This document shows positions 1 through 27,030 of a DNA stretch of 64,000 nucleotides, one piece after another. Positions within the stretch are counted from its first letter, which is position 1; the number at the start of each line of letters is the position of its first letter. A model generated the notes under the pieces. It made no database searches. It was not told the origin of the DNA and was given only the letters and a program-made list of their open reading frames with translations. The stretch comes from Auricularia sp. M13 (Eukaryota > Basidiomycota > Agaricomycetes > Auriculariales > Auriculariaceae), in assembly GCA_037042915.1 (NCBI GenBank), contig CM073199.1, forward strand, positions 3,286,001 through 3,350,000, given 5' to 3'. Position numbers and translations under genes: made by a program.

Positions 1-212
1 GTTACACTCAGTAAGTAGTTCCGGAGCCTTTTTGCACTCATTTTTGCGTTTCAGACTTCAAGTTCACTCTGTACAACAAAGACGAGACAAGTTCGATGTG
101 ATTGCGGGCGACTTTGGTCGCAAACGAGTACAAAAGGGGCGCGGAGGCCGATTCGGCGAAAACGACATACGGGACACCACATGCGAAACGCGAGAAGCTA
201 CCTACGGGACAC

Positions 213-4394: not shown

Positions 4395-4550
4395 GGTGAG
4401 GGTAAGAGGACAAGAAGCAAATTGACAGGCCGAAGCTTTATGTCCAACCGCGAATTGAATTGCCATTCAGTCCGCGGCGCCCTCGGCCCGTTGTTTCGTC
4501 CTCCCCGCCCTTCGCCTCTCTCCCTCGGATGCTCCCTCGGCTTGCGGCTT

Positions 4551-4560
4551 GAAGGGGGGG
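4551..4560 (+). other. Polypurine tract
   Basis: GAAGGGGGGG three bases before the right LTR. Plus-strand priming tracts sit exactly here in LTR elements, so it fixes the element's orientation. Confidence 0.6.
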
Positions 4561-4563
4561 TTA

Positions 4564-5419: not shown

Positions 5420-6107
5420 CTACCGTACAGCGAGCGGATCGTAAGCAGCGCGTTGCGGTGCGCAGAGCCGAAATCGAAAGTGTACGCCCCGAGATCGAGG
5501 AGGCGAGTCGCTTGCCGCTTCCAGTGATTGTAGGCGCGAGCGGGACGAGGGCCCTGGTCGTTGTGGCAAGCGCCGGCCGCGAACTTGTATGCCAGAAAGA
5601 GGCGCGCAAGGAAGATAAAGGCGGGGCGGTGCTCCTCGTCGAGCTCCTCGTAGCACTCGGAGGGGATGACGCAGTACGCGGCCAACATGAAGCAACACAC
5701 GGGTTCCGAGTCGTCGTCGTAGCCAGCGATCTGCGAGACCGTCAGCATAAACGCGCGATTCCAATATCGTACCACGTACCGGGAAGTGGGAGAGAATCTC
5801 ATGCTCGTTCTTGCCGGTGCGAATGGCCGTGAGGAATAGCACGAACTTGTTGGCGTCAAGGAGAGCGTCGCGGCGCGGCTGGTCGCCGTGGCAGCAGACG
5901 AAGGACGAAGGAAGCGAAGAGTCCAACGCGGGCGGGTCGTCAGGAGCGTTCCAGTATTCAGCGAGGGCCGCGAGATCCACGGGCACGGGCTCCTCCACGG
6001 GCGGCGGCGGTGGCTCCACAGCGCGCGCGACGACCACCAGCCTTGGCCTTGGCCTTGCCCTTGCTGTTCTTCGGGGGTCCCGTCTTATGAGAGCGGCGGC
6101 TGGACAT
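5420..6107 (-). pseudogene. 5' half of an unknown host gene, split by an LTR element
   Basis: Minus-strand start of a host gene whose other half lies at 213-1095. The ATG at 6107 is my choice; the reading just after it, a Lys/Ala-rich stretch, does not join cleanly to the next frame, so the true start is uncertain. Coding then runs through a Pro-rich stretch, an intron at 5779-5731 (GTACGT...CAG, 49 bp) and a helical region with Ala/Leu-rich segments such as FLARLFLAYKF. It stops where the LTR begins. The reading phase on this side continues in the same phase at 1095 once the duplicated CTACC is counted once, which ties the halves together. I do not recognise the family. The segment vaguely recalls a cyclin-like helical fold, but no motif proves it. 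Confidence 0.6.
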
Positions 6108-6476
6108 GAGGGAAAACGCAATGAGGGCAATGCGGGACAGGAACCAACTTATATCCTCAGACAGGGGGTATTCAGTTCTAGCCCTTCACAAACGACTTGG
6201 ACGAATTCGGGACGGTCAGTACGGTTTGCCGTGCAACGGCAGCCTCAGAACAAGCAGCCTGCGGTCCCGAATGTTCCACGCAACGAGTACCATTCACCCG
6301 AGTCAACTTCAGCAAACTCAACTCGCGACAAACACGTGGCGGTGCAAGAAATCAATGCTATTCCGCGGGAACACTTCCAAGAACATGTCAACTGTCAAAC
6401 AACTCGACCCTGAGGCGCCGGCGCCGCGTTATTCGGACGGCCGAACATCGGGACACTGGACCGCCACGCACTCGGA
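6108..6476. other. Intergenic, likely promoter of the minus-strand gene at 6107
   Basis: About 370 bp between two minus-strand genes. I see no convincing TATA box or RNA gene. It must hold the promoter of the split gene and the 3' end signals of the gene at 6477-7481. Confidence 0.4.
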
Positions 6477-7481
6477 TCAGCAATCAAGTCGCGAATACGA
6501 AGACGGAACGCACTCAAAAGTCAAGGCCTCGAAAGCGTCAGCATGTTCACCAGTGGCGTACAGGCCGCCGTTAATGTTCTGACGTGAAAGAACGTCGTGG
6601 ACGATCTCGGCACGGATGTCTTCAGGGATGAAGCCGTCAGTACGGGAGAAGGTCGCGAAGCGGAACGGGTTCCGTTCATCAAGCGCCCCATATTCCCAAA
6701 GGCTAGCGGTAGCTGTCGGGATTTCGGTGGTGAACGGCTTGATAACGTTGAACATGGCCATGAGACCCGCATACGAGGAAGGACGAACGGAGCGGAAGTC
6801 GCGAGCGACGTTCGCGTGGATGCGCTCGAGTACCTGATACTGCGTTCCAACGAACTTGGCGTATTCGCGATAGATGCGCGCGAGTCCGGCGTAATGGGCA
6901 AGAATCAGAAGCGTGTTCTGCGCGGGCGTTCAGCCTCTTCAAACGCTATTCCGAATGCGGCGACTCACAGAGATTGCGGGCCAGTGCGAGATGAAGAACC
7001 CGACTTCATCGGCGTGCGCTTGGTCAGGAGCGCTCACAAGGCGCCCGAGCTGCGTACCGATATCCTGAGCAACGGTGGCATAGAAGTCAAACGCAAGGAC
7101 AGTAAACTGTCCCGGGTAGACCTTTGCGGGTTCCGGCATCTCGGGAGTCGGGGCGTTTGGATCGAAGTACGTCGAGAGACCAGCCAAGGCAGGGTTCCAT
7201 CCAAGGGCCATTGAGTCTTGAGATGCGAGCGTCTGGATAACTTTGGCGACCGTCTTGGTGATGCTATCGAGGGCGCGATAATTCTCGGACACCGCGCGCG
7301 AGATGGCCGCGAGCTGAGCATGTTGCGTGGCGATAGCCTCGTCGATTTCGCGATGACGCTCAACAGCGCGACGGGCGACGTGGGCGAACGACAGGAACGT
7401 CGGGAAGACGTAGACCTGAGAGAGGGAGGTATTGACGAAAGACTGCATGATGAATGCGGGTTGGAGGACACGACTTAGCAT
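6477..7481 (-). CDS. Hypothetical two-exon protein with a coiled-coil N-terminus
   Basis: Two exons, 7481-6969 and 6917-6477, joined across a 51-bp intron with GTGAGT, a CTGAAC branch site and CAG, giving about 317 residues. The start at 7481 is the first ATG; one at 7448 (MQSF) is also possible. Residues about 35-100 are Ala/Glu/Arg-rich heptad-like helix, with repeated Ile/Val spacing in VAKVIQTL. A central part has PGQFTVLAFDFYATVAQDIG, and the C-terminal exon is largely helical. No catalytic motif, signal peptide or membrane segment is evident. I do not recognise the family. The clean intron and uninterrupted frame argue for a real gene. Confidence 0.6.
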
Positions 7482-8685
7482 TCCGAGGACCTTTTATGGC
7501 GACGCGATTTCGCGGGTCCCTGATGCTTCGCAATTTGATGCACAGGGACGTGCACATTCAAAGTACCCCGCGGATGATCGGGCAGAAATTGACACGCCGG
7601 AAAAATCGCGTCCCTTTCAAGATAAAGGCGACATAGCAAGACACAATACAAACTCGAATACAGTACTACCACACATCCCGACAACAACGAAGACCGCAAA
7701 TCAACAAGAACAGCATTCCGAAATGGAACACGCGACGCACACCGGCAAGACCCGACATCTCTCCAGCATGGACAACTTGGCGACAACGGCTCGGCAACCA
7801 CAATCCCTTCTATTGGACCTCAAGCACGACTCCCGGATTTGCCTTTCGAGACTCCCAGAGTATGCGCGAAGGACGAACGATCCGTCTCTAAGAGCAGGCG
7901 AGCATATTCCGCGTTCGCCTCCCGAAAGTGTCCCAGCACACGACCGCGTGCTACTCCGGCAAAGACACCACGACCACGAAGGTGCGCAGTCGCCCTGGCT
8001 GCGAAGGAATATTCTCGACGCCGCTGTCTCCGGTTCCAAGGGATCACCAGCAACCGAGAACGATCCTGACTCATTCACCCAAAATCGTTATCGGCACCTG
8101 CGCATTCGCGAACACGTCACCCGCTGCGACCTCGGACCATATCCAGACCAGGGTCTAGGGCATCCTTCCTCTCTACTGTCCCTGAGCATGTGCATCCTGA
8201 GAAACCGGGGAAATGCGGAACACGAAACCCATACTAGGGGAATCCCGTCATCGTGATCGCAGCGCACTTTCCCACGGTCTATGGCGTCATCCAAACGGCA
8301 GGGCAGGCCGCAGCACACTTGTGGACGATCGGTAGTCTTTCCTCGGAGCAAATCCTGAATCACACGCTCACGGGATCGGCCTTTCATTGGCTCCCGAGAA
8401 TGGATTGCGCAACCCGCAGGCGCGCGCAGTCCGCATGTGACAATCGGGAACTCTTCCTATCGCATGGGCATTATCGGTACAGCTCGGGACATGGTCTTGA
8501 TTGGCTTGGCATTCTCCTGTATAAAACGCGATAGGTAGTTAGGTAGTTTTCCCCCAGCACAGCGGCTCACGAGCATCCGGCTCACCAGTAGTTCAGTATC
8601 GCGCACTCCGGCGCCCAGTTCTCGTACTCGCACCCGTCCTCCGTTCTAGTCCGTACGCAATCGAAGTCTCAGTCACCCTCTGCCA
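7482..8685. other. Gene-free stretch left of the KDZ transposon
   Basis: About 1.2 kb with only overlapping open frames on both strands and no intron logic linking them. A TATA-like TATAAAAC occurs at about 8520, some 170 bp before the transposon target site, and may belong to a promoter that the insertion separated from its gene (right flank from 27031). Confidence 0.4.
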
Positions 8686-8693
8686 TCTCCGTT
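8686..8693 (+). repeat. KDZ target-site duplication, left
   Basis: TCTCCGTT immediately before the first base of the left inverted repeat; the identical octamer follows the right end at 27023. Confidence 0.9.
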
Positions 8694-9520
8694 CACCTCA
8701 GGTAGCTGCAACCGGGTGGCGTTAACCCTATTTTACCCCCCCGGAAAATAGGCTAGCGTCAGGCCCGCGCCCGCGCCCGCGTCCGTTGCAGGTGGGTCAG
8801 TGGGACAGCAGGTGGTGGTGCGGGTTTCGTTGCGGGTCCCTGTATAGTAGTGCGGTTCCCATTGCGGGTGCGTGAATGCCAGTGCGGTTCCCATTGCGGG
8901 TGCGTGAATGCCAGTGCGGTTCCCGTTGCGGGTCCCTGGGTGCGCCTGCGGGTCCCGTTGCGGGTCCCTGGGTGCGCCTGCGGGTCCCGTTGCGGGTCCC
9001 TGGGTGCGCCTGCGGGTCCCGTTGCGGGTCCCTGGGTGCACCTGCGGGTTGCTCTGCGGGTCCCGGGATGCACTTGCGGGTTGCTCTGCGGGACCCATTG
9101 CGGTTCCCTGGGTACGCCTGCGGGTCCGTTGCGGGTCCCTGGGTGCTGCTGCGGGTTGCTCTGCGGGTCCCATTGCGGGTCGCTGGGTACGCCCGCGGGT
9201 CCCGTTGCGGGTCCCTGGGTGCTACTGCGGGTTGCTCTGCGGGTTCCATTGCGGGTCGCTGGGTACGCCCGCGGGTGGCCCTGCGGGCGCTGCTGCGTGC
9301 GGCTTATCCCGGTGGGCCCCGCCGTCGCCGGCATCGGCCGCCGCCGCGCCCACCGCCGTCGGCATCGGCCGCCGCCGCGCCACCACCGTCGGCATCGGCC
9401 GCCACCGCTGCCGCCGCCGCCGGCGCCGCCGGCGCTTAAATCTCAAAAACATTTTCTTTCCCAAAAACATTTTCTTTCCCCAACTACAAACTAAATCGAG
9501 GCAACACTTAATATGTACCA
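8694..9520 (+). repeat. Left terminal inverted repeat with minisatellite
   Basis: About 0.83 kb that reappears inverted at the right end. Order from the tip: CACCTCAGGTAGCTGC, an AT-rich block around CTATTTTACCCCCC, a GC-hexamer tract, then a tandem minisatellite built from TGCGGGTCCC and CTGGGTGCGCC modules (about 8850-9290). Next come GCC/GCATCGGCC repeats and an AT-rich inner edge near 9440-9520 where AACATTTTCTTTCCC is doubled. The open frames here exist only because the repeat has no stops. Confidence 0.85.
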
Positions 9521-10347
9521 TATTCGAAAGCAGTGTCAAATTTGGAGCACGGAATCTTAATGCATGCAGAAACTTTCGTATCACCTTTGCTATGTCTACA
9601 AGCGAGCAATTTACGCAAGGATTATCAAGAGCAGACAAAGCAGAGGTGATAGGAATTCCCTTCTAAGTTCCCTTGCAGCCTCTATGTGTCTGGATGTGCA
9701 ACAACAACGATATAATCATTCAATGCACAACAACGTGCACATAGACCAATGATACTTTGCGGTATGTGCCCGTTGTTGTTCATTATGGATGTATGCATCG
9801 ACATCCACAGACCCTCGGCCGCACCCGCGCCTGCACCCGCGGCCGCACCCGTAGATGTGACGAACGTTGAATCGAACGCCATGTCCTGATGCATGCAAAA
9901 TTGTTCGCGTTACCTCTGCTACGTCTACGCACGAGCTATACGGGGTAAAATATTGACCCAGAGCCTCTATGTGCCCGTTGTTGTACATCCAGAGATTAGG
10001 ATCACCAAGTCGGACGCAAAATAAAGGAATGCACAACAACGGGCACATAGACGAATAAATATCATTTAATCGCGGTATGTGCCCGTTGTTGTTCATCACA
10101 AGTATTTATGGTACACGCCCCGGACGCGCACCTGCGCCCGCACCTGTGCCCGCACCGCGGCGTACCCGCGGCCGTACCCGCGGCGGTACCTGTGTCGGGT
10201 GTCTGTCAGCTGTCAACGGACAAGTCCGTTGCGGCTGATCTCCGTTGCGGCTGATCCTGCGGGTCACGTGACGGGTGCGGCGGACCTACGGAAGTATCCG
10301 GGGAAGGCCGACTTTTTTTCACCCACCCGCCGCCACCACACCACATA
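9521..10347. other. Left subterminal spacer of the KDZ element
   Basis: Gene-free. Carries several copies of TGTGCCCGTTGTTGT in both orientations (about 9763, 9967, 10032 inverted, 10078), GC-hexamer tracts at about 9822-9850 and 10115-10195, and probably the transposase promoter. Confidence 0.6.
9763..10096. repeat. TGTGCCCGTTGTTGT motif cluster
   Basis: Four copies within about 330 bp, in both orientations, some able to pair as hairpins. A fifth, inverted, lies at about 25789-25803 in the right spacer. Location in the two subterminal spacers suggests a binding site for the element's proteins. Confidence 0.6.
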
Positions 10348-13300
10348 ATGTCCCACAGACCTGGCTCGTCGGCCGCGCCTAAGCGCACCCAAAAGTCCGG
10401 CGCCCAGCGACGCAACTCGAAAGCGTTAAAATCGGCGCTGTGACATCCATTGGCCTGGGTATACCCCAGGCCATGAAAAAGCTCACAAAAAGGCGGAAAA
10501 GCGGCGAGCAGCACATGACGCCGCTGTTTGTCGTCCCCAAAATCCCCGCGTCAGGTGTCGTTCGCGCCCGCACTGCTGTTCATCGCGAGTGGGTCACGAG
10601 AAAACCGTGCGCACGTGCGCGAGGTCCGTGTGCAGCAGTAATCCTGCCCTAGAAGACTGTTCAGACATCCTAGAATGATTGTTGAGGGTCATTCCAGTAG
10701 CTTACACCTACCCGCACATGTCTGTGTGCACAAACCTATCAAACCTTAAAAACTGGCCAAGATATTGTCAAATTACTGGTTTCAAGTTCCGTGCGCATGT
10801 TGCGCACGTTGCGCACGGATGCGCACGGACTGCGCACGGATTTTTCACACTGCGCACGAAGGTTGAAATCATGCGCACGGATTGTAAATCTGTGCGCACG
10901 GATGAAGGAGGACTGCGCACGGATTGTGATTTTGTGCGCACGACATTTTGGACCCTGCGCACGGATGTTAGAATCATGCGCACGGACATGGTAGACATGC
11001 GCACGGACATGCTGACACTGCGCACGGATTTTGTGTGTTGCGCACAGATTCTGTATAAAGCACAACTGCATTATTTTTTTCACTTTGGCACATCTAGGCG
11101 ACTTGATTGAACTCATTGAAGTTCATTAACAAACACCAACTATTTCCATAAGTCTTGTTGCAATTGACTGCTCAAGTACAGTTTGTTAATACACTACGGA
11201 ATGTAGTAAACACAGGTAGAAGTGCCACAAAATGGATGTCTATGACAGGATTTGAACTGAGGGTGTTTCGAATCCATTAAGAACATGTACATGTTAACCA
11301 CTAGTCCAAACTACAGAAAATACATCCTGGTAACTTGAGTATAATATGGTGTGGGCGTCCAGGTCCCTCTGTGAGATGACATGGTGAGGATGAGGTTGGA
11401 ACCCATCTAATCAACACGAAGATCTGAAGGGACGGGATGGTGGTGTGATGCAGGAGAGTGAGCACCTCTGTGGTACAGAGGTGGTGGAGCAGACACAGCA
11501 AACTTTGGCTTGTTCCAGGTCCACTCCACGGCCCAAAACACGTGTCTCGTCTCTCCTTGACCCAGACAATTCATTTGAGATTTTTTGACCAAACTGGGAT
11601 CAGGGCTTAGAATCTATTAGTAGATGAGTGAATCATGGTTACTCAGGCTGCAAAGGATATTACTCCTGAATTCATGAACCAAATTAATATAAGTCCTAAC
11701 CTTAGCAAGCTTAATCTAACCTAACATAACATAACTGTATGAGGGTAACATCTTTTGAGTTATGAGTACCTACTTAGAGCCTCTTCAGGAAATCAGCTTA
11801 GAACACAAACCGACATGCTGGCTGAATATTTCTGATCCCAAACAGATCATGTAGCACAGTAGTTTATCTAAAATAGTTGACACTAGAGATGTGCACCTCT
11901 ATCAATGCACACAGTGCCATAAATACATCTATGATATACATCTTCAAAAGATTTTTGATGTTTTTCACACTGCGCACGGATTTTGTACTTTGCGCACGGA
12001 TTGTGAAAACTGCGCACGGATATCAGGAGCCTGCGCACGGATTGTGAAAATTGCGCACGAAAGCACATTTCATGCGCACGGATGACCAGGACCCTGCGCA
12101 CGGATTTTGAAAAGTGCGCACGGACATTTGGACCCTGCGCACGAAAGTTAAACTCATGCGCACGAAAGTTCTAACCCTGCGCACGGAAGTTCTGCGCACG
12201 GATATTCTTGCGCACGGATGCGCACGGACCCTGCGCACGGTTTTCTAGGGGTCCATCGCGAGTCACCCGTTCCACAGGCCGCCGCTGCTCCGGAGGTGCA
12301 GGACGACTTTATTCCGTTTGGCCCAGCAGATGACTACGACTATACGCCGGCCCCGAAACGCAAGCGGGTCGCAGGTCCACCGACGCTGAAGACGGAGCGC
12401 AAGTTCTTTCATTGGAACGAGCTGCTACCGAAGCTGGTCGACCCGATCCTCCATTATCTCGCATCCAGCTACGGCGACGCGATGGGCAGCAGCGGTAGCG
12501 GGACCCGCAGCGGGACCGGTAGCGGCAGCTGCGATGTCTTCTCGCGCTCTGAAGGTATGTCGCAGTTACAACAGAAGATGTTTCCTGAGTGTGTACATTA
12601 TCAGAATGCCCCGGCGACGCGTGCACAAGTGGAGTGCGCCTGCATCGCGTTAATCTGGTGTACCTGAAGCGTGCGAATTTTCTTGCCATGCTTGGATGTT
12701 ACTCACACACAATATCAGACTGTGAAACCCGGGAAGTTAGGACGTGTAGCCACATGAGCTATGCAGTCTATTTAGCTGAGCGCGGCCTGTTTCCCTCATC
12801 TCCTTGCAATCCCCATTACGCATTTAGTATCGACTTGCTGAATCTATTTCTAGACCTCATCCGGAATGCTTCCAATTCCGTTCAGTCTCTCGCCGCATCG
12901 CTCAGAGATCAGCATCGAAGCAATGGTTACATTTTGCGGACGAAGAAGGTAACAATAGTGCGTGAAGTACAGCCCAGTCGCTAATTTCTTTCCGTTTCAG
13001 GGAAAACCGATCAAGGAGGGATTCAAGAAGGCCCTCACGGACGCACTCCTGTGGTACGACCTCGTTCGTGCCAGACAGGAGGCCGGGACTGCCAAGTGCA
13101 TTCTTCGAGGCCGGCAAGACGTGCTGTATCCATCGCTGGCGAGCGCGGTCACGGTCGCGGGTACGGGTACGGGCACGGGCGCGGGCGCAGGCGCGGTCGA
13201 ACTTGCGACCCTGCCTCCAACGCCCACCCACGAGCATCAGCGGCACCGGATACCATTCCCGACCGTTGAGGAGGTTCTCGACGAAGACGCCATGGACGAA

Positions 13301-16300
13301 GATCGGTCGTCAGATGTCCCTGACACTGAGTTCGACATGGACAGGTTTCCACGGGCAGAGCCCTGGCATCCGCCGCATCCCGCAGCCCATCCGCGACCGG
13401 CGCCGAGTGGGCCACAGGTAACAGGGCCAGCACGTCACTGGATTGCTGTTGCGGCCAAGTTTGGCCTGTTTCCTGATGGTCGGACCGACATCGATGGATA
13501 TCTTGCGTCTCGTTGCGCAAAGTGCTTCGCTACGGCATTCGTTGGACTTCCGCTGTCGACGTATGTAATTTTCTGCTCTGGGCTGCGTGCGGTGTGACTT
13601 ATGCTCAACAGATGTGATTACCACCTGGCTGTCGATGGCAACTTCTCCCACCGACGTAACGTCACAGCAGGTGACTGCCCAGAGATTCTGTTCACGCCCG
13701 AGGCCTTTATACCGAAGGAATTCGTCGATGCCGTTGGTACCGCACACGACGAAGCCAGGAAGCGCCCTGCTCGCAAGTACAAGACTGAGGTGCCCGCAAG
13801 CGCAGTGAAGCAATGCGAAAGCTCTCATACCGCGGCGGACGGGTCACGGATCAAGGCCGGCGGTGAGAAGCACGACGACCGCGGTTTGATGGCTATCGTC
13901 TGTCGACATGACGTGCCACTCTATGTCTGCAACATCGACACACCGGGAGAACAGATGAAGTACGCCCTCGCAATGTTTATCTGGACAAAACTCCACCTTC
14001 CGTCTCTGGCGACTATTCTGAACCTGTACGACATCGGATGTGTGCAGCACAAGACCGTTCTGGCTGTGAGCACCATTGCGGATACGGCCGCGGGCGCGCC
14101 TGCGGGTGCGGGTGCGGCGCGGCCGCAGCACATGCCACCGTGACTTCAGCTAATGCCTCCTCAGTATGCCGTCCTGACTCCCCTGATGGAGTCCCTCGTG
14201 GTATTTGCCACGAGCTCCATGCACTCCTATGCGCACCAGTGGGAGTGTCAGATTGTGTACAGTCCGCGAATGAATCCCGGATTTGGCCTCTCTGATGGCG
14301 AAGGCGTTGAACGGCTGTGGTCACGGCTCAGGGGTTGATTACCAACCTCCGTGGTGCTTGGGTAAGTCAAATTGCACCTGTTTGGTATTTATATTGACAT
14401 TATACAGAGGAAGGGACGCCTCATTACCCTCGATCGGCATATCCAATGGGTCGGCAGAGCCATACGCGACGAGTCGGGCAAGTGGCTGCAACGAAAGTGG
14501 AAAGCAGTCAAGGACCGCGAAGTGGAGGCAAAGAAGGACATTGAGGCGTCCGGACGCTCATCGGAACTCCTGAGGGCGCAGTGGCGCGAGCAACGCGAAG
14601 CTCAATTGGCGGTACGACGCAGTAAGTTTTGTTACGTCTGCGGGCGCGGCTACGGGCGCGGCTACGGGCGCGGGCGCGGGCACGGGCGCGTGTACGTCTG
14701 CTTGTTCGATTAAGCTAACGGACTTGCAGCTCGGACACCCCGGTTGCGCAAGGAGCTGGAGGCTGTAATGGCGCTTCAAGACCAGATCGACACGGTCGAG
14801 GAAGCCATCGCAGTTGCACAGGCCGCCGTCGACCGCAGCAGTGTGCCGTCTGCATCTCCCAATGCGCACCTGGATGAGCTTCGGGAATCATTGGCGAACC
14901 TGACACGGCAGGCAGATGCGCTGTACGCCTCGCTCAACGTGGAGCAGGAGTTTCCCGACATTCAGGAACTTGGTGTGGACTTTGTGCGTGCCTTGATCAT
15001 GTGCTACGATGCGAAGTGCATTGCGCGCCGCAAGATTACCGGACGTTTTTTCGAGTACGAGACCCTCGATCAGGCTGCCGGTGGTGCTGGCGAGCCGCTG
15101 GGTGAGTTCGTGAGTTGCTTGGATTATATGTTCTAACGTCCTACGATCTTTGCAGGCACCAAGCAGCATCAGAAGGTCCGGTCTTCGATTAATCGCCGTA
15201 CTCCTGCAGTTCACAGCGCCATCGTCCGCTATAACGACCTTTGCGCACGTGTGCGACAGCTCCTACCCGCAGGCCGCACGTTCCCCCTTCCGCAGGAGCT
15301 GCCAACCGACATTTCGAAGCTCAAGAGCGACAACTCGATGCTGCTGGAGGATGTCTGGGTGTCAAGGCTACCTTCTGGAAACGGTCTGTGGCTGACAGAC
15401 TCGACTGTCCGTGTTGCGATTCGGGCGCAGCTTGCTCTCGATCGTTGCACTGCTGAGAGGGAGCGCCTACTTCGCGAGGAGAAGCAACTGTTTAACTGGC
15501 TAACACTGGAGGCAAAGGCCATTGCCTCGGCGATCATGAACCCTAGCAGTACGTCAAGCTATCAATTTATCGCAGCCAACATTGACCCACCATAAGACGC
15601 TCTTTACGTGACCCTATTGCGGCGGGAGTATGCTCGTCTGGAAGACCTTGCTCAGGGCTGCAAGAAGCTCAATATCCCGCTCGCTAGGTGGGAGGAAGCG
15701 GTGCAAACGCCCATCGCAGCGGTCGAGGCCACCGCAGCCGCAGCCGCAGCCGCAGCCGCAACCGCGCCCGCGCCCGCGCCCGCGCTTGGAACACCAGTGT
15801 CGGCCCATGTCGGGCAGGCTCCGCGCCCCAACATTGGAACGACATCTCACGGTCCAATTCGGTTCAATTTGGCATTGCCGAACGGTACACGACCGCGCAC
15901 ACTGGGTCTCTCAACGCCGCCGCCGACTCCACAGCACCGACACCATCACGGCGTGGAGAACGAGGACTCTGACTCTGATGAGGACTCGGACGACGACGAC
16001 GACGGCGATTCAAGCGATGAAGACGACCCGTTTCTGGACAATTCTGTTCGCGTGGCCGACTATGAGCTTGGTATTGCACCAACTGTTGACTTTGCTGCCC
16101 ACAAGCCGGTGAGTCATCCTTGATATAGATTTTGCGGCATAATACTTACACAAACCGCCTTCAACAGATCAAGTCTGCGCATATCGACTCGGAGCTCGGC
16201 CCCATGCTCCAAGCCTATGTTCCAGCGCACCCGCAGCCGCAGCCGCAGCCGCGCCGCAGCGGCCCGGGTCCGGTTTTGCGCGGGTGGATCTGACTTGTGC

Positions 16301-17170
16301 AGCTCTCACCTCGCTGCGCGCTCCTGGCGTTCTCTCAGGCGATGCCATATATGCGTGTACGAGGGCTCTCATTTCTGAGTTCGCCGGTGGGGCTTCAGAC
16401 CGCGTTGCTGTGTTTCACCCTCGCGACTACGCACTCTGGCTCGACACAAGTGAGCGAACCCGCGTGTTCAAGCAGGTCGAATGCACCGAGTTTTGGAGGA
16501 AGGACGTCATCGCGGTGCCGATCTTGAAGAACTACGACTGGATGCTGGCTGTGGTGTACCCTCTCTGCAACAAGATCGACTTCTATGATTGCTTCGGCAA
16601 CAAGGATCGCGGAAATTCATGCGGAGGTGTGTCTCTGTGATGTCCGCTGAGACAGAGTGCTAACTTGCTCTTAGTGCGTTGGTCAATTCATCACTGCGCT
16701 CCTTGGGTTCGCCAAGTCCGTCCCATCAAGGAACGCAACAACACCGCCTATGCGTTGGGACGTGCGAAGACTGGTGTCTCCCACAGAGCCCCATCAGGTC
16801 CACGGCCTTGTGGACAGTGGGCTTTGGGTGCTGGCTACGATGGCAGCTGTAGTCCGCCAGTGGCGCTCAACTGGGTTGTCCGAGGATCTAATTCCTGTGT
16901 TTCGGGTTTATTTGTATGATCTCATTTGTAGGCATGTTCCTGTAGTAGATAATAATGTTGATCCTTTGTAATTTGGCTGGCAGAAAGCTTGGTTCCTTCT
17001 GCAACGGCAAATGCCGTGGAGCGCAGCGGCTGTACCAGCGGCCGCACCCGCGCCGCCGCGCCCGCACCCGCAACACGCACTTGCGTGACCCTCGACATTT
17101 TTTTAAGTGTGTTGAAGCAGCTTGCTGCCACATGTACCATTTCAAAAATATGTATGAAAAATATTTTTGA
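10348..17170 (+). CDS. KDZ transposase with C-terminal Ulp1-like domain
   Basis: About 1,450 codons over at least a dozen exons. The N-terminal exon (from ATG 10348) has the basic K/R-rich lead usual in fungal KDZ proteins and is split by the element at 10591-12253. A degenerate Cys region (12590-12750) precedes YAVYLAERGLFPSSP. The RNase H-like core has D in AVDGN (about 13630), CESSHTAADGS with CRHD, D in YDIGC (about 14030), and E in DGEGVERLWS (about 14310). A helical insert and an acidic Ser/Asp tract follow, then the Ulp1-like peptidase domain (16270-16920). Intron examples: 13561-13611, 14066-14149, 14622-14729, 15102-15155, 16109-16167. Breaks seen: frame changes near 10430, near 14331 (GGGG just after the last catalytic motif) and near 16250. 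The 3' end is either about 17086 or 17170 depending on the last splice site. Confidence 0.85.
10797..11046 (+). repeat. Left TGCGCACGGAT subterminal repeats
   Basis: About fifteen irregularly spaced copies of TGCGCACGGA(T/C), each with the palindromic core TGCGCA. Such arrays normally serve as transposase-binding sites. Confidence 0.75.
11971..12240 (+). repeat. Right TGCGCACGGAT subterminal repeats
   Basis: Second cluster of about sixteen copies in the same orientation as the left cluster, ending at the right tip of the nested element. Confidence 0.75.
16270..16920 (+). other. Ulp1-like peptidase domain with altered catalytic residues
   Basis: C-terminal domain of the transposase gene. The fold signature is clear: YALWLDTS, then NYDWMLAVVYP and IDFYDCFG, then HGLVDSGLWVLATM. 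In active C48 peptidases the first would be H-W, the second Y-D-S, and the third Q-x5-D-C-G. Here the catalytic His is Asp, and the nucleophile Cys is Ser, while the Asp and the upstream Gln are kept. It is therefore probably a non-catalytic, SUMO/ubiquitin-like-binding remnant, or this copy has decayed. An intron at 16629-16674 interrupts it. Confidence 0.6.
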
Positions 17171-17449
17171 TGTCCTATTTAAGGCGGTGCCATATCATAT
17201 TACAAGTCATAAATGTGTTGAGGGGAAAATGTGTGGCGAAGAAATCGATTTCGGAAGAGGCCGGACTCAAGAAACGCACAAAGTCAAGCGGGAGAAACCG
17301 TATTACAGGTCAGACAGTAGCACGGCGAAACCCGCGGCAAAACGCGGTTGCAAAACAAGAGGCAATCCAGAAAGTAATCCGGAGAAAACCGCATTAGAAT
17401 AGCACCAGGATTCAAGGCCAAATGCATTAGCAAACCCCACAGCAAAGGC
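17171..17449. other. Spacer after the transposase gene
   Basis: No gene. Degenerate versions of the 35-bp satellite unit (CGCATTAGAA, AATGCATTAG) already appear near 17390-17430, so the array probably fades out to the left. Confidence 0.4.
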
Positions 17450-18080
17450 AAGTCTAATGCGCTCGCAAACGCATTAGAAACCGCAAGTCTAATGCGCGCG
17501 CAAACGCATTAGATAGCGCAAGTCTAATGCGCTCGCAAACGCATTAGAAAGCGCAAGTCTAATGCGCTCGCAAACGCATTAGAAACCGCAAGTCTAATGC
17601 GCCGCATAAACGCATTAGAAAGCGCAAGTCTAATCTTTCAAACGCATTAGAAACCGCAAGTCTAATGCGCGCGCAAACGCATTAGATAGCGCAAGTCTAA
17701 TGCGCTCGCAAACGCATTAGAAACCGCAAGTCTAATGCGCTCGCAAACGCATTAGAAAGCGCAAGTCTAATGCGCTCGCAAACGCATTAGAAACCGCAAG
17801 TCTAATGCGCGCGCAAACGCATTAGATAGCGCAAGTCTAATGCGCTCGCAAACGCATTAGAAACCGCAAGTCTAATGCGCTCGCAAACGCATTAGAAACC
17901 GCAAGTCTAATGCGCTCGCAAACGCATTAGAAAGCGCAAGTCTAATGCGCGCGCAAACGCATTAGAAACCGCAAGTCTAATGCGTTTGCGAGCGCATTAG
18001 ATAGCGCAAGTCTAATGCGCTCGCAAACGCATTAGAAAGCGCAAGTCTAATGTGCGCGCAAACGCATTAGAAAGCGCAAG
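17450..18080 (+). repeat. 35-bp palindromic satellite, about 18 copies
   Basis: Tandem units of AAGTCTAATGCG + CTCGCAAA + CGCATTAGA + linker. Each unit is an interrupted palindrome (CTAATGCG/CGCATTAG) able to form a hairpin. Linkers alternate among AACCGC, AAGCGC and TAGCGC, giving hints of higher-order structure. One unit near 17976-18010 has its central spacer inverted (GTTTGCGAG). The units abut with no unique spacers, so it is not a CRISPR array. Confidence 0.9.
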
Positions 18081-19351
18081 GTAATGCGCGCGCGCGGATT
18101 GTATTTGATTTGCTTTGCATTAGGGTCGAAAGTGTTCTAATCAGTGAAGTTTGATTACACTGAGCATTACACTGAGCACTAATACCCTGCTCTTCGCGGT
18201 CTGTAATGGCGATTATCGCCCCAACGATGCATGCAAGTCTTGACCCCTCATAGGAGTACAGTTTAGATGCAAGTCAGAGTCTCTTGAGGTGGTGAGAGAG
18301 CTTTGAGAGGCAAGTAGTGGAAGACTTTGTGATGGTTTTGTTCACTTGGGTTAAGGATACAGATTCATGCAAAGCAGATCGAGTCGTCGAACAACCAGCC
18401 CACCGTACGCACATCCAGTCTTATTCCAGTGTCCTAAGATCATCTACTGTCCATCCTGTGCAAGGGGTCAAGGAAAACGCGTGGGATGGTTGTGTATGCA
18501 GCAGCTGTGGTATTCTTGTTCAAACAGCTTACACCCAGTACCTCAATGTCCACAGCACTGTCTCATGAGCCTTTATTCGATGAAACTACATATGTATTGT
18601 ACTGAGGTGCGCCAGGGAAATACAGCGTGAAATCCCGCACACCAAGGCAGTCAGGACTGCGCATGCAGCTGCAGCGTAGTGCTCACTCGAGCTGTTCCCT
18701 GCAGCAAGTCACTGAGCATCGCACTGCAGACTGTGCAGGCTATGAATGGTGCGCCTCACATCCTAGACACAGCTGAGCCTACTCATTCTCACTGACAGCA
18801 GTGTCCTTCCAGCAAAAGCACGCCTGGAAACAGGTGGGAGACGCTGTATAACTCACTGGTGCTTCGAGTGCCATGCATGAATGCACTGACCAGAACACAC
18901 TTCAACCTCCCAACACTTACACCGTGCTATATTTGACAGTGAGGACATTGATATGTATTGCAGACATAAGTCTCAGGTTGCAGAATCCGTCACTGCTGCA
19001 TAGTTGACTGAGGCACGAGTGAGAACGCTCCATAGACACACGCAGTCGCGCACGCAGTCAGAACCGCGGCCGCAAGCGCAGCCGCAAGTGCAAGAGGACT
19101 TGCTGTCCTTATCAAGGACTGATTCAAGGCTACATTAGAGTTAGTTCAGCCTTATTGCAACCGAGAGAGTTCGTTCAGGGTCACCTCCGGGATAATAAAC
19201 CTTGTAGGGATCAATTGAGCCGATATTGTGACCGAATTTCTTTGCCCCACTATCTCCAACTGTATTAGACACGTGTTTATGGCGTTGTCTACTATTTCTC
19301 ATGCCTCTGGGGGCGTTTGAGGACCCACTGGTACACCGGGGGCACGCGAAA
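18081..19351. other. Spacer before the second KDZ gene
   Basis: About 1.3 kb with only short open frames. It holds one Arg/Ala-type GC tract near 19060 (GCCGCAAGCGCAGCCGCAAG) and must include the promoter of the gene starting at 19352. I found no clear TATA box. Confidence 0.4.
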
Positions 19352-22300
19352 TGGAACTCCGATTCCGTCTCTTGATCCGTAATCCCAACCTCGCCCCGCT
19401 CACCCCGCGCCCGCCCCTACCTCCCCAGGTGCGCCTGGGCGTTTACCGCCCTGCTTGCAGTGCTGACAGGCAGCGCAGGATGCTACCGCGCCCGCGCTAG
19501 CCTGCGCAAGAAGGCAGCCGCAGCCGCAAGCGCGCCAGCAGCGTCGCCCGCAAAACGGGCTGCAAAGCCCACCGCAAAGGCCACGACGGCCACGAAGGCC
19601 ACCAGGGCCACCAAGGCCCCCGTTGCGAAGGTGCGCCCTTTGTTCTCGCACGACTTTGCCTTGCTGACAGCCTTGCATAGCGAGGAGCCTACACCGGCGA
19701 CAGCAGCAGCGACAGAGGCGACGACGACAAAAACGACGACGACGACGAAGACGAGAAAACGGCCGAGGAGTCCGCCACGTCCAGCGCCGCAGAAGAGTCA
19801 GAGTACGAGGCCGCGAGCGACGCTGCGGCCGACGAGAGCGCTGCCGAGGGCGACAAGGCCGACGAGAGCGCCGCCGAGGGCGACAAGGACGACGAGGGCG
19901 CCGCCGACGAGAGCGCCGCCGAGGGCGACAAGGACGACGAGGGCGCCGCCGACGAGAGCGCCGCCGAGGGCGACAAGGACGACGAGGGCGCCGCCGGAGA
20001 GCGCCGCCGAGGGCGACAAGGACGACGCGCGGGCGACAAGGACGACACGGCCAAGGGAGCCGCTGACAACGAGAGCGCGGCCGACGAGAGCGCCAACGAG
20101 GACGCTGCTGACGACGCGGCCAAGGGCGCCGACGACGAGGACAGCGCTGACGAGAGCGTCAACGAGGGCGACAAGACGGTCACCGCCGCCGATGGAGCCG
20201 CCGACGACGACACCAACGAGGGCGACAAGACGGTCACCGCCGCCGATGGAGCCGCCGACGACGAGAGCGCCGCCGACGACAAGAGCGCGGCCGGCGAGGA
20301 GATCGCCGCCGAGGGCCCCGCTGACGGCGCACCCACCGGCGACGCGGACGCGGGCGCGCACGCGGGCGAGGGCGCGCTCGCGGGCGAGGGCGCGGGTGCC
20401 GCTGACAAGATCGCGGCTGAGGACGACGGCGACAAAGACGGCGACAAGAACATGAGCGACGTCGACGACGACACGAGCGAGGTCGACTCGACGTACTCGC
20501 CCGTCAGCCCGCCTGCGCAAACCCCGACTCCGTCGGAACAGGTGAGGTTTTCATCTCCAGTGTTTTATTTTTCTAATATGTGGCTCAGTCGGACGACGAC
20601 GACGCGCAAACGGTCGATGAAGATGATCTGTTTGAGGATGTAGTATGTACAGTCTTTTTGTCGCGAGTCATCAGCACTAACGAGCTCTGCAGCCTATTCT
20701 GACCTTCCCGGAGTACAAGCAGTTGTGCCTCAAACTCGAACCGTTCAACAGCCTGGGAGCCTTGGAAATGCTCTACACAGCAAGCTTCCTGCCGTGCGAT
20801 TCAGAGGAGAGAGAGCAGGAAGAAGCGAACCGGGTCAGACTCCGGTCAATAATCTTGAACGACCTCAAGGCGGTGCGGAAGAAGGATCTCGTCGATATGA
20901 CGCCGGATATGGTGAGGGAACGGCTGCGGCGGATGCAGGCAGACGCCAAGGACACATACGACGTGGTCGTCGAGAAGCAGGTCGAGTTCCCCGACTCCCC
21001 GCACGTCGCATTCGAACCCGCGCCCACGCCCGTGCCCTCGTCTTCGCCCGCCCCCGCACCCGCGCCCGCAACTCCCGGGGTGCAGGCATCGCCGTCACCA
21101 GCGCCTGCGAAGTCGAAGGCCAAGGCAACGGGCGGCCGTCGCGCGTCGGCCCCCGAGCAGGGTACCCTGGCTGCGGCCATCTCAGCTCGGCCACCTGCGT
21201 CCGTTGGTGCACCGGTCGCGGCGCGGGCAAAGCCCATCGTCAAGCGGACGCTCGGCGAGTTGCTGGGCGAGGACAGTAGCGACGACGGCGACGAGACACC
21301 GACCGCCGTGCCCGCTGCGACACCTGCAGCAGCACCCGCAGGCGCACCCGCAAGTGCCGACGCTACCACTGCGTCCGCTCCTCCGCCTGCTCCAGAGCCC
21401 GCGCCCAAGCCCAAGCAGCGCAAGCAGCGCAACGTCGAGCCCGACCTTCCCGCGCCCTTAGAGATCTCGCCCGAGGCCAGCAAGCGCAAAAGCAAGAGCA
21501 AAAGTGCGTCTGCTGCGCCCGCAGCCGCAGCCGTGCCCGCGCCCACGCCCGTGCCCGCGGCCAGCAAAGCCAAAAGCAAGAGCAAAGTGCGTCCGCTGCG
21601 CTCGCAGCCGCGCCTGCGCCCACGCCCGTCCCCGCGACCTCCGAGGTCATGGCCGAGCCCAGCAAAGGCAAAGGCAAGAGCAGAGGTGCTGCCGCTGCGC
21701 CCGTGGCCGCAGCCGCACCCGCACCCGCGCCCGCGTCAACCCCGCGCCTCCATCTCCACCGCCTCTGGATCCTGCCGCCGCCGCCGCCGCCCGCGCCGCC
21801 GAGCCATTCGACATCCCCGACGTGCTGATGTTCGACGAAGACCCAGAGGACGAGGAGGAACGCCTCGAACAGGAGGCCAGAGAGTTTGACAAGGTCTTCA
21901 GGCCTGCTGGCCGGGACACGACTCAGGAGGAGGTCCACGACCTCTACAAGCTCCTCATGAAGACTTTGCTGCGTGAGGCCAAGCTGCAGCACGAACTGGG
22001 ACCCGGGCGTCCCACAGCGCGCCAGGGCCAGGCCATGGACCTTATGGCGACGTTTTTTTCCAAGATGGTCACCCTCGGCTCAGCCAGCCTTGGGGTTAGC
22101 TCAGAGCGCCTGCGCGCCCTCATTGGGCTTCTGCAGAAGCCGCGTCAAGTCACCCGGCTCGAGCTGTTCAAGAAGTTCTGCCGCAACACGCACGAGGGTA
22201 CCTTTTTTTCCTTCTTTCTCTTGTCTCGTATGCTGATGTGATTGCAGAATGTACAGAGCGTCGCAATTTCGACGATATCCTCGGCAACCGCGGCAAGTAC

Positions 22301-25300
22301 AGCGCCGAGGAGTGCAAGACGCTGTACACCAAGTGGTCGGCCAAGTTGACGGACGAGCAGATCGACAATCTGCTCATCCGTCACGAAATTGTGTACCCGT
22401 ACGGCCCGGACAATGGCACGCCCACCGACCGCCACAACCTCTTTCAAGTCGAGGTGGACAACGTCATCCGGCTGGTAAGTCACTATTGCGGTCGCAGGCG
22501 CGGGCGCGGGCGCGGGCGCAGGTGCGGCTGCGCCTGCGCCTACCTATACATGCAGCGCTGACGCTTTTTACCTTGCAGCTCGATTACCTGGCCGCGTTCT
22601 ACCATTTCGACTCGACGCTCTTTATTGCCGGCTCGCGCATCGACTTCGACCGCGACCCCTCGATGTTGCGGTTCCATGCGACCCACAATGCGCACGACTT
22701 CGTCCAACACAAGCTGTTGGAGGAGCCCCGTGGAGCCTTGGCCAAGTTCCAGGGCCACGTGACGTGAGTGCCTGAAAGAGTTTGTCAACTCTTTCCCTCT
22801 CGCTGACATTGATATTGGCTCGTAGGAACAGCCACCTCAACATGGTGACGGACATGACCGCAATCGCCCGCGGTCAGCAGCCACCCGCCCAGCGCGTCAG
22901 CATCACGGGCACCGTCCCCCCGCCCCAGCCGACGCCCGACCAATTCTACATAGCAACACGCCCTCGCCCTGGGGCGGTTGGATACGGGCTACAGGCAGCT
23001 CGCGCATCGGGCTCGGGCTCGGGTGCGGGCGCGGGCGCGAGTGCGGGCGCGGGCGCGAGTACGGGCGCGGGTGCCGCTACACCTGCACCAATGTCGGCCC
23101 GTGGCGAGACAGCGGAACACGAGGGCAACGACGAGGAGCAGGTCGAGGGAACGTCCAAGACGCCAGAGAAGGGCAAGGAGCCCGTCCTGTACTATCCGGA
23201 CGTCGACGAGCCGGTGCCAGCGGGCAAGATCGCCATCTGGACTCGCAGGGGCAACACGACGCAGCGGATGAAAGTTCTGCTCGACTACACGCCGCTGTAC
23301 ACCGACTACATCGGTTTCACGCTGCAGCTCTCGGAGGAGGATAGGAAATTGGCGCGCGATAGGCTCGTCGAGCTCTTCGAATGTAAGTACCAACCACATC
23401 CGCGCCCGCGCCTGCGCCCGCGCCCGTGCCCGCGCTTGACACCGTGCTGATGTCTTGCAGTTACTCACGTCAAGATCCCTTTGCCACAAAATGACGGGAT
23501 ACCTCTGGCGGCCATGATGACCGCGCTCAACAATTACCGGATGATGATGGGTGGCTGGCCGCCATTCGCATATTTCCCGGCCGATTTGTCGGGCCGCACC
23601 AACTTCTCGTCGTTCAGCGGTGCGATGCAACGGCTGATCTTGTTTGCTGCACTCTGCGGCAAGCTATGGACGCGGCCCGCGCTTGAACTCGAGGGCGACA
23701 TGCTCGAGCAGGTCCGCACAGCCACGGGCAAGCCCCACCTCAACAACGTCTTCGTCATGGTGCTCAGTGAGGAGTACCCCGTCGGCGTTGGCAAGCCGCA
23801 GTGGGCTGGCACGTATCGTGCTATGCTCAACGACAAGACGGTCCTTGGCTGCCCGCATAAAGAGCTCATCGACTATGTTCCCACCGCAGTCAAAGTCCCG
23901 CCGCCCAACTGCCCTTACAAGGGAGTAAAGGCGCCCGCTCCGCGCGTTCTTCGAGTGGGCCCTGAGCCTTCGGCTGCGCTCGCCGCGCAATGTGCATCAG
24001 ATGGGCAGCAAGCCGCAACGCCCGCACCATCCGCACCCGCGCCCGCACCTGCGCCCGTGCCCGCACCCGCACCCGCACCCGCACCCGCGCCCGCTCCCAC
24101 CGCCAAGAAGTCCAAGCGCAAGGCGCGCGACACGGTCAACTCGGGCGACGAGGCGGCTCTCGCGCCCGTCACCGAGGTTGTCAGCAACAAGACCAAGAAG
24201 CCGTCAAAGCCGCCCAAGGGCGTATCCGCGTCTGTCAAGTCCAAGGAGCAGCTCGCAGCTGAGAAAGAGCTGCACAATCAACAGCAGCAGCGTAAGAAGG
24301 AAATGGTGGATCGGTACGTCGAGATTGACGACACCACAGCTGTCACCGAGGCTGCGACCTCCAAACCGGCTGCAAAGGACGCGAAGAAGACAACGGGCCG
24401 CAACAAGACACACGAGCAGGAAAAGGAGAAGGAAGCCAACGAGGAGGACGTCGAGGAGGTCGAGTACGAGGAGGAGGAAGTCGACCCGCCCGTCGACCCA
24501 ACGCGTGTGGAGGCTCCCAAGCGCAGGAAGTCCAAGAGGTCGGTCGTGTTTGCGGAGGATAAGGATGCACCGGTAAGTTTTTTTTTTGCTGATTTTGGTG
24601 TCCATCACACTGACCATTCACAGGCGGCCAAGAAGCGCAAGATTGCGGGCGCATCCGCACCCGCAACCGCGCCCGCGGCCGCACCCGCACCCGAGCCGGC
24701 GCCGGAGCCCGAGCCCGAGCCCGAGCCCGAGGCTGACCCCACGCCCGAGCCCACGCCCGAGCCCGAGCCCACGCCCAAATCCAGGGCTGGAAAGCAGGGC
24801 AAGCGCAACGTCCAGCCTGACGTGCCCGCGTCCGAGGGCGATACTTCGCCCGAGTCCAGCAAGGTCAAGGGCAAGCGCAAAGCCTCCCCCGCACCCTCAT
24901 CCCCTCCCGCCCCTCCCGTCACACCCTCCCGCAATCGCCAGCGCGTCGTCGCCAATACGGCTGAGGCAGGCCCGTCTACTACGCCGTCCAACAAACGCAA
25001 GCGCGATGCTGCAGACACAGGCGAGGAGGACGCGCAGCCGCACAAGTCGTCCCGAGTGCAGGAGAAGGCCATCAGCAAGCTCCCCGCGGTCACCCTCACG
25101 ATCGCAAAGGCCAAGAAGATGTCCAAGTCAAACAAGCAGATGGACGGCCTCCTCAAGCCTCAGAAGTCGTGGCCGGCCGGTATGCAGGTGCCGGCAGGGT
25201 TCGAGGACCAGACCGCGTACACGACCGCGATTCTGCGCGCGCTCAATCGCGTTGCCCTGACCGAGGTGGAGAAGGTGCTCATCCGGCACTGCTTCAAGAG

Positions 25301-25364
25301 CTGGCCGGCGGATGTCAAGAAGTCGCCCGAGATGATGGAAATGTTCCTTGAGCTCGTCATGTAG
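19352..25364 (+). CDS. Large unknown cargo gene of the KDZ element
   Basis: Proposed about 1,800 codons in ten exons. The start at 19352 (MELRFRLLIRNP) is tentative. Then a basic Ala/Lys/Thr stretch like a histone H1 tail, an acidic repeat (DEGAADESAAEGDKDD units, 19682-20541), and a globular region from 20693 (ILTFPEYKQLCLKLEPF). Ala/Pro spacers follow, then segments with ELFKKFCRNTHE, IRHEIVYPYGPDN, DYLAAFYHFDS, DYTPLYTDYIGFTLQLSEED, MMGGWPPFAYFP and VMVLSEEYPVGVGKPQWAG, and finally a long charged, Pro-rich tail with KSKR stretches. Introns: 20542-20588, 20643-20692, 22198-22247, 22475-22578, 22764-22825, 23383-23460, 24573-24623. The frame shifts twice inside the Ala/Pro tract at 21580-21750, or an intron is hidden there. 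No known domain is recognised; a nuclear, chromatin-linked role is inferred only from composition and context. Confidence 0.7.
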
Positions 25365-26156
25365 CGTGTGCCGGTTTCCTTGAAATTGGAGCTTTGATTT
25401 GTTGCGCTAAATTTCCGTGTGAACCAAGTACAAGCGGAGCGGGCGCGGGCGCGGCTGCGGCTGCGGCTGCGGGCGCGGTTGCGGATGCGGATGCAGGAGT
25501 TGGTGTGCAACTTGAGTCCCAATGGGAAATTGGAATTCAGACATAGGCTCATGTGCTCTTATGCATCTGAATGTAAATCTTTATCTGGGGTTTTGGTGAT
25601 TATCCAGCATCTGATGAAAAGAATGTGACAAGTACTTCTCACAATGCACATTTTCTTGAAACATCAACATCCATAGTCAAATCAACATATCCACATTCAC
25701 ATAAACACATTCACACGTACTGAGAGACCCTCCAAGCATTCACTGCTTCTCCGATTTGAAATTTGTCCCCAGTTATTTTGTTCATGTACAACAACGGGCA
25801 CATAGCACCGATGGCTGAAATTGCATAATCAGGCGTCTGGCATATCTTAAATACGTTTTGTAATGGCAGAGGCTGTCACCGGATTGGCGCTGAGTTTCTT
25901 ATGTCTGCTCTCGAATGCCCTCTGCCGCACCCGCACCCGCAGCCGCAGCCGCAGCCGCAGCCGCAGCCGCAGTTGCACCCGCGCACTGGGCCGGGCGCGT
26001 AGATGTAACAGAGGTGACTTGAAATATAAATTTGTTAGCTGATATGAATGTACTTGAGTGATTTGAGTTGAGGTTTCAGCTGCGGTTACATATGTGGGAT
26101 TCATGATTGACATTTTTGTTTCATGCAGTTTTTGTGTCGCCGCTTTTAAATGGAAC
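25365..26156. other. Right subterminal spacer of the KDZ element
   Basis: Gene-free. GC-hexamer tracts lie at about 25437-25495 and 25928-25985, and one inverted copy of the TGTGCCCGTTGTTGT motif near 25789, mirroring the left spacer. Confidence 0.6.
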
Positions 26157-27022
26157 TAATGTACAGATTAAGTGTTGCCTCGATTTGTTTTGTAGTTTGG
26201 GAAAGAAAATGTTTTTGAGATTTAAGCGCCGGCGGCACCGGCGGCGGCAGCAGCGGTGGCGGCCGATGCCGACGGTGGTGGGCGCGGCGGCGGCCGATGC
26301 CGACGGCGGTGGGCGCGGCGGCGGCCGATGCCGGCGACGGCGGGGGCCCACCGGGATAAGCCGCACGCAGCAGTGCCCGCAGGGCCACCCGCGGGCGCAC
26401 CCAGGGATCCGCAACGGGACCCGCAGGCGTACCCAGTGATCCGCAATGGGTCCCGCAGAGCAACCCGCAGGTGCACCCAGGGACCCGCAACGGGACCCGC
26501 ATGCGTACCCAGGGATCCGCAATGGGTCCCGCAGGGCCACCCGCGGGCGCACCCAGGGACCCGCAGGGCCACCCGCGGGCGCACCCAGGGACCCGCAGGG
26601 CCACCCGCGGGCGCACCCAGGGACCCGCAGGGCCACCCGCGGGCGCACCCAGGTATCCGCAGGGCGCCCCGCAGGTGCACCCAGGGACCCGCAACGGGAC
26701 CCGCAGGCGCACCCAGGGACCCGCAACGGGACCCGCAGGCGCACCCAGGGACCCGCAACGGGACCCGCAGGCGCACCCAGGGACCCGCAACGGGAACCGC
26801 ACTGGCATTCACGCACCCGCAATGGGAACCGCACTGGCATTCACGCACCCGCAATGGGAACCGCACTACTATACAGGGACCCGCAACGAAACCCGCACCA
26901 CCACCTGCTGTCCCACTGACCCACCTGCAACGGACGCGGGCGCGGGCGCGGGCCTGACGCTAGCCTATTTTCCGGGGGGGTAAAATAGGGTTAGCGTCAC
27001 CCGGTTGCAGCTACCTGAGGTG
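26157..27022 (-). repeat. Right terminal inverted repeat with minisatellite
   Basis: Inverted counterpart of 8694-9520, matching from the outer tip to the inner AT-rich edge (TTAAGTGTTGCCTCGAT on the plus strand). The minisatellite differs in copy number and unit order: this arm has a run of CGCAGGGCCACCCGCGGG units near 26535-26655 that the left arm lacks. The inner AACATTTTCTTTCCC is single here. Confidence 0.85.
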
Positions 27023-27030
27023 TCTCCGTT
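27023..27030 (+). repeat. KDZ target-site duplication, right
   Basis: Second copy of TCTCCGTT, directly after the last base of the right inverted repeat. Confidence 0.9.

Follow-up and report, generated by a model that had tools for sequence, protein, structure and literature searches.

The window analyzed here is a 64,000-nucleotide stretch of Auricularia sp. M13 contig CM073199.1 (positions 3,286,001 to 3,350,000 of the forward strand; C7:3286001-3350000 in the genome coordinates used below). Positions 8694-27022 of the window very probably hold a cut-and-paste DNA transposon of the KDZ superfamily with two genes, in a copy that is full-length but decayed. This high confidence covers what the element is and what condition it is in, excluding the roles of its gene 2 protein and of the Ulp1-like domain in its transposase. 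The family is a KDZ DNA transposon: it has a KDZ domain over the profile cut-off, an 8-bp target duplication and terminal inverted repeats (TIRs), and it occupies several sites in a genome that also holds the empty site. It is a variant within the known superfamily, and the window copy is damaged and unfit as a reference. A preliminary description of the locus had proposed a complete 18.3-kb KDZ transposon with two genes, minisatellite TIRs, an internal satellite and an 8-bp target duplication. Its architecture was borne out by TIR alignment, a KDZ profile search, and searches for further copies and for an empty site, checks that it had itself proposed; its size and its proposed use as a reference copy required revision.

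Element ends and target site duplication

The interval 8694-27022 is delimited by mirrored ends and carries the same exact octamer on both flanks. The outer end, CACCTCAGGTAGCTGCAACC, starts at 8694, and its reverse complement finishes at 27022. The left TIR (845 bp) and the right TIR (888 bp) are 93.6% identical in 827 gap-free columns. Each consists of a short unique end followed by 32/64-bp tandem units, with a palindrome (GACGCTA...TAGCGTC) within the outer 75-80 bases. When folded as single-stranded DNA, the left window end was unremarkable (z -0.63, with 47 of 200 shuffles equally good) and the right window end stood out (z -3.73). Open frames over the TIRs were rejected as genes, since they occur in several reading frames and on either strand of the arrays. 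The features of the element are as follows.

8686-8693, no strand: target site duplication, left (TCTCCGTT), found once at each of three paralogous empty sites
8694-9538, + strand: left TIR, 32/64-bp minisatellite units plus subterminal palindrome
10348-16971, + strand: gene 1, CxC1-like/KDZ transposase with C-terminal Ulp1-like domain, 11 hand-placed exons
10582-10590, no strand: 9-bp duplication of the nested insert, left (ATCGCGAGT)
10591-12254, no strand: high-copy repeat of 1,664 bp nested in gene 1 exon 1, foreign to the KDZ element
12255-12263, no strand: 9-bp duplication of the nested insert, right (ATCGCGAGT)
13612-14361, + strand: exons 4-5 of gene 1, most of the KDZ domain, intron 14066-14164 (omega, the ratio of nonsynonymous to synonymous substitution rates, 0.05 and 0.03)
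16168-16971, + strand: exons 10-11 of gene 1, Ulp1-like domain, intron 16627-16674 (omega 0.15 and 0.12)
17444-18093, no strand: internal satellite, 35-bp unit, 18.7 copies (15.7 in sister copy C7b, shorter in sister copy C11)
20590-25363, + strand: gene 2, conserved exons to the stop
26135-27022, - strand: right TIR
27023-27030, no strand: target site duplication, right (TCTCCGTT)

Copies in the genome

The genome (52.1 Mb, 14 contigs) was searched with 434 bp of the left end. The 28 matches resolved into nine two-ended copies and one lone 38-bp end (C2:3031952), which was excluded from the copy count. A perfect 8-bp duplication flanks each of the nine copies with both ends read, five of which are two-gene copies and four of which are short. 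The two-gene copies of subfamily A, with their duplications, are the window copy (W, TCTCCGTT), C7b (TGTTGAAC) and C11 (CGACAGAG), and short copies with A-type ends are C8 (CGAGGTCA), C2 (GTCCGGGA) and C10a (GCCGTAGC). Subfamily B comprises the two-gene copies C1 (CCGAGAAG) and C10c (TGTCGAAT), and the short copy C10b (TTTCTCTC) has B-type ends; the subfamily-B duplications are printed as 9-mers that contain one chance base, the duplication itself being 8 bp. Gap-free identity is 99.59% between W and C7b, 98.89% between W and C11, 98.85% between C7b and C11, and 99.34% between C1 and C10c, as against 67.3-67.9% between the two subfamilies. The 32-bp period of the TIRs is common to A and B and the unit sequence is different; a subfamily-B end folded as single-stranded DNA stood out strongly (z -9.65). 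We discarded the motif TGTGCCCGTTGTTG as a general end signal, as it is repeated in the A copies and C8, occurs singly in each B copy and is found in none of C2, C10a and C10b.

Among the short copies, C8 is an A-type element with an internal deletion. C2, C10a and C10b look like fold-back elements: their inverted repeats extend over ~2.4-2.6 kb (measured up to 2,600), and they have little in common with the two-gene copies except the ends. As the short copies are without most or all of both genes and have the same kind of ends and duplications, they were presumably mobilised by protein made elsewhere. The fold-back-like relatives, 6.2-6.5 kb in length, lie at C2:3678689-3685161, C10:49070-55472 and C10:155678-161874 (L014, L015 and L020); their open frames of at least 170 codons were seen mostly within repeat arrays, and a KDZ match was found in none of them.

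Empty sites and insertion context

For the empty site, 200 bases from each flank were joined with one octamer and the resulting 400 bases searched in the genome. Among the 40 matches listed, 29 span all 400 joined bases at 95-100% identity, and the remaining 11 include the window's own two halves as well as partial or more diverged rows. Three empty sites read at base level all show CTGCCA-TCTCCGTT-GGCCTC, with the octamer once each. Many of the matches are paired in the same orientation, ~12.2-12.9 kb apart; one such pair on C5 forms direct repeats of at least 974 bp that are 99.7% identical. Between the C5 repeats lie matches to an aspartic protease, RNase H and an integrase zinc-binding domain, together with a reverse transcriptase match under the cut-off. 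These paired direct repeats enclose retroelement domains, and the insertion context is therefore the long terminal repeat (LTR) of a gypsy-type retroelement. Window positions 1-1095 and 5420-8693 match the 3' part of such a retroelement, and 27023-27481 matches its LTR end. The retroelement that holds the KDZ insertion also contains, at 1096-5419, a nested LTR-type element of 4.3 kb; its direct repeats measure 857 bp and share 99.8% identity, and it is flanked by a 5-bp duplication (site overlap 5 bp).

A nested repeat in the transposase gene

The bounds of the 18.3-kb element held, but this length includes a foreign 1,664-bp repeat that sits within exon 1 of gene 1; without it the element measures ~16.7 kb. 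The insert has its own duplication; a 10-bp reading of that duplication is also possible, in which case the insert is 10591-12253. It is not present in C7b, C11, C1, C10c or the short copy C8. A single uninterrupted 18.3-kb element was rejected on account of this insert. A search with the insert gave 51 matches (40 of 71 candidates scored), and besides the window at least 18 relatives span at least 1,587 of 1,651 bases, 17 of them at 92-97% identity and one at 85%. The 9-bp duplication was seen in the window insert and in two of three other copies inspected, the third (L023) having a left end that was not printed. Tandem TGCGCACGGA units lie close to both ends of the repeat. A 9-bp duplication is typical of Mutator-like elements, and from the length of the duplication alone we would guess the insert to be Mutator-like.

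Gene 1 encodes a KDZ transposase

Gene 1 runs from an ATG at 10348 to a stop near 16971, for a predicted protein of ~1,450 residues; its introns were placed by hand on the five-copy alignment by GT-AG sites and open frames, not transcripts. The KDZ profile PF18758 matches one window open frame (3.6e-23, 82.8 bits), and on the spliced sister copy C11, scanned in two pieces, it reaches 149.8 bits against a cut-off of 26.6. The spliced C11 also matches the CxC1 cysteine cluster PF18802 at 26.3 bits, just below the cut-off of 26.9, and C48 at 23.6 bits against 20.7; in the window's own frame the C48 match is 20.4, just under the cut-off. Within the KDZ domain (L011/L012), the sequence is YNIGC in C11 and YDIGC in W and C1. 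Between subfamilies A and B, gene 1 has an omega of 0.14 at a synonymous divergence (dS) of 0.85, which indicates purifying selection between the two subfamilies. For each exon the calculation used the open frame that scored highest, and of the possible pairings of the three A with the two B copies it used the best one. The halves of exon 1 on either side of the nested insert are both constrained (omega 0.14 and 0.17).

Besides the nested insert, gene 1 of the window copy has frame-shifting length changes near 10420, 14330 and 16608. Stops in the spliced model, with the natural stop counted, number 59 in W, 32 in C7b, 3 in C11, 10 in C1 and 38 in C10c; by this exon model, gene 1 is thus undamaged in none of the five two-gene copies. 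The preliminary description had called the window element an attractive reference copy, a proposal that the split exon 1 and the further frame-shifting indels overturn: because of them it is a poor one. With the repeat nested in its transposase gene, the window copy very probably cannot make a whole protein, and any further movement would need the protein of another copy.

The Ulp1-like domain has substituted catalytic positions

The C-terminal domain of gene 1 belongs by its profile match on C11 to the C48 fold family but appears not to have the residues of an active peptidase. Asp-Trp (NYDW) stands at the catalytic His-Trp position and Asp-Ser-Gly (VDSGLW) at the Asp-Cys-Gly position, as placed by weak alignments to SENP1/SENP2 structures (E 0.059 and above, in a list that includes unrelated chains). 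Both motifs are present in all five two-gene copies (W, C7b, C11, C1 and C10c). Ser also occupies the Cys position of 2g4d, the PDB chain that matched best; we take 2g4d to be an inactive mutant, and the wild-type Cys is therefore not shown by it.

Genome-wide there are 28 C48 matches, of which 13 sit 2-3 kb downstream of a same-strand KDZ match (L030-L042), an arrangement like that of the window family; the pairing was done by hand from two match lists and left 15 of the 28 unpaired. In readable frames, HW and DCG, and with them the catalytic His and Cys, are kept at all 13 of these other KDZ-Ulp1 loci, which are not 13 independent families (L033 and L034, for example, are the same in the compared part). 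A partial KDZ-domain tree of 15 rows held C11, C1, three further KDZ loci and 10 of the 13 KDZ-Ulp1 loci, whose KDZ parts are 31-41% identical to C11; L035, L037 and L039 were left out because no continuous reading of them was possible. L033/L034 fell on the side of the C11/C1 family with support 97/93, a placement that is unsure because of long branches on both and the midpoint root. The genome has 149 exon-level KDZ matches, which is a lower bound and includes a few below the cut-off.

The substituted residues, taken with the constraint on exons 10 and 11, suggest that the domain is protease-dead, and it probably no longer cuts SUMO. With less certainty, it may serve as a binding module, conceivably for SUMO itself.

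Gene 2 is conserved without a recognizable domain

The conserved exons of gene 2 are probably preceded by a low-complexity N-terminus that starts at about 19.3 kb. Between subfamilies A and B its omega is 0.35 at dS 0.86, from 0.15 to 0.51 by exon, two exons with 61-80 aligned codons having 0.15-0.16, in a test that leans towards coding and in which the long linkers fell out of the alignment. These values indicate purifying selection and thereby support the coding status of gene 2, in agreement with the two genes first described. Four gene 2 window frames and two spliced pieces had no match in a Pfam scan, and a third spliced piece had two weak matches, both below the cut-offs. A PDB search with a two-row gene 2 profile returned a ribosomal protein alone (E 0.12-0.17). 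Assignment of gene 2 to a known domain was therefore dropped, there being no Pfam family over cut-off in the scanned pieces and nothing useful in PDB. The association of Agaricomycete KDZ elements with epigenetic genes, raised in the preliminary description, found no support here: neither a dioxygenase match nor a TET/JBP gene was seen in the scanned pieces of genes 1 and 2. A genome-wide profile search with PF20515 gave no match, with its controls silent as well.

Gene 2 occurs at six loci, five of which are the two-gene copies. The sixth (L028, C11:291199-292812) is a lone subfamily-B fragment, 96.7% identical to C1; an exact search of its surroundings (19.5 kb) for CACCTCA or its complement gave one unpaired match. 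A related KDZ-Ulp1 family, represented by L034 and L063 (C1:2668100-2680000), has long open frames downstream with P/A/K-rich linkers. When gene 2 was compared with the second gene of the L034 family, the C-terminal score was reached in 18 of 2000 shuffles and the other four pairings failed; with one of five pairings standing out, homology between the two is unproven.

Elsewhere in the window, an F-box-like match over cut-off lies at 47526-49016 (+ strand), and a match over cut-off to the N-terminal domain of acylamino-acid-releasing enzyme lies at 37794-38912 (- strand).

Comparison with known KDZ elements

The superfamily was reportedly named KDZ by Iyer et al. in 2014 (PNAS). In Cryptococcus neoformans, KDZ1, KDZ2 and KDZ3 are moving KDZ/CxC1 elements of ~9.2-11 kb (PMC12810828). 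The window family resembles them in its KDZ domain, its TIRs and its 8-bp duplications (4-8 bp for KDZ2/KDZ3; PMC12810828). Its match to CxC1, the other domain of those elements, falls just under the cut-off. Movement is proven for the Cryptococcus elements, whose TIRs are 139-241 bp; the window family has minisatellite-built TIRs of 845-888 bp, is ~16.7 kb without its insert and, unlike KDZ1-3, carries both a conserved second gene and an Ulp1-like domain at the end of its transposase. The term Ulp1 appears nowhere in the Cryptococcus paper (PMC12810828).

The pairing of a KDZ transposase with a second gene is shared with the TET-bearing Kyakuja/Zisupton elements of Agaricomycetes (PMC12730594). 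Of these, Kyakuja-1_LB and -2_LB of Laccaria bicolor have 7-bp duplications and no TIRs (PMC12730594), whereas the window family has 8-bp duplications, long TIRs and no dioxygenase match; it is set apart from them by description, not by a tree. The words 'Ulp1', 'C48', 'protease' and 'minisatellite' are absent from the main text of that paper (PMC12730594). An 8-bp target duplication is reported for Zisupton, one Dileera family and KDZ1 (PMC12730594, PMC12810828), and Zisupton in Pristionchus has TIRs with no duplication detected (PMC9297572). With KDZ elements described from Cryptococcus, Laccaria and Pristionchus, a complete KDZ element as such is not new. Ulp1 is named 21 times in a paper on the Ginger DNA transposons (PMC2836005). 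Ginger elements have an integrase-like transposase and belong to another superfamily than KDZ. Among the papers searched, none named both KDZ transposons and Ulp1; a KDZ-Ulp1 fusion may nonetheless have been published already.

Discussion

Under the proposed mechanism, the KDZ transposase of gene 1, which presumably has an RNase H-like fold, would bind the two long TIRs and excise the element. Joining of the excised element to an 8-bp staggered cut, followed by repair, would leave the 8-bp duplication. The gene 2 protein could act with the transposase as an accessory factor, a role for which we judge the case evenly balanced. The window copy landed in the gypsy-type LTR, and the nested repeat entered its transposase gene later.

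Past movement is supported by the several occupied sites and the empty site. Several points weigh against the overall reading of the element. Movement itself was not observed, and the empty sites found are in paralogous copies of the LTR and not at the allelic locus. No gene 1 is undamaged among the five two-gene copies, which leaves present activity unproven, and some of the gene 1 indels could be assembly errors. The design of the omega test leans towards coding. We give almost no weight to the idea that the locus is not one transposon and merely chanced to be framed by two arrays of inverted repeats. Such arrays, and GC-rich tandem units, might on their own give rise to inverted matches, and 197 inverted pairs were found; against this, the same unique outer ends recur in nine copies, each with its own exact 8-bp duplication, and an empty site was found. 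That the frame-shifting indels are assembly errors, and the nested insert the sole real damage, seems improbable: some of the indels do lie in short single-base runs, but gene 1 damage varies between copies. The insert, with its own duplication and many relatives, alone interrupts exon 1.

The two less certain components of the transposon each have a rival reading. Gene 2 might be captured host cargo or non-coding sequence instead of a transposition accessory, a reading consistent with its lack of a Pfam or PDB counterpart, its long low-complexity stretches, and the present or past movement of C2, C10a, C10b and C8 in its absence. Its omega between subfamilies, its presence at six loci of which five are two-gene copies, and the lack of any host gene of origin seen in the genome argue against this, and we consider it unlikely, though less so than the other rivals discussed here. 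The Ulp1-like domain might likewise still be an active protease, with its residues misaligned or functionally replaced. Its profile and PDB matches are weak, 2g4d shows no wild-type Cys, and Ser can serve as nucleophile in other proteases. Yet the His and Cys positions are both changed in all five copies across two subfamilies, and the neighbouring motifs align with the 13 loci that keep HW and DCG, so that an active protease appears quite unlikely.

In a single genome one can see the ends of this family, its target duplications, its sister copies and short derivatives, and the empty sites at paralogous positions, which makes its anatomy secure even though the window copy is broken. Tentatively, and with rather more doubt than confidence, the family may represent a two-component KDZ lineage in which an inherited Ulp1 SUMO protease became a protease-dead, SUMO-reading module of the transposase, and which depends on an orphan second protein acting at long minisatellite TIRs. 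What is likely to last is a second gene that is kept by selection and named by no profile, TIRs in which minisatellite units follow a subterminal palindrome, and a domain of SUMO-protease type that seems disarmed yet is still constrained. If the disarmed domain is true, whether SUMO marks steer transposition would become directly askable.

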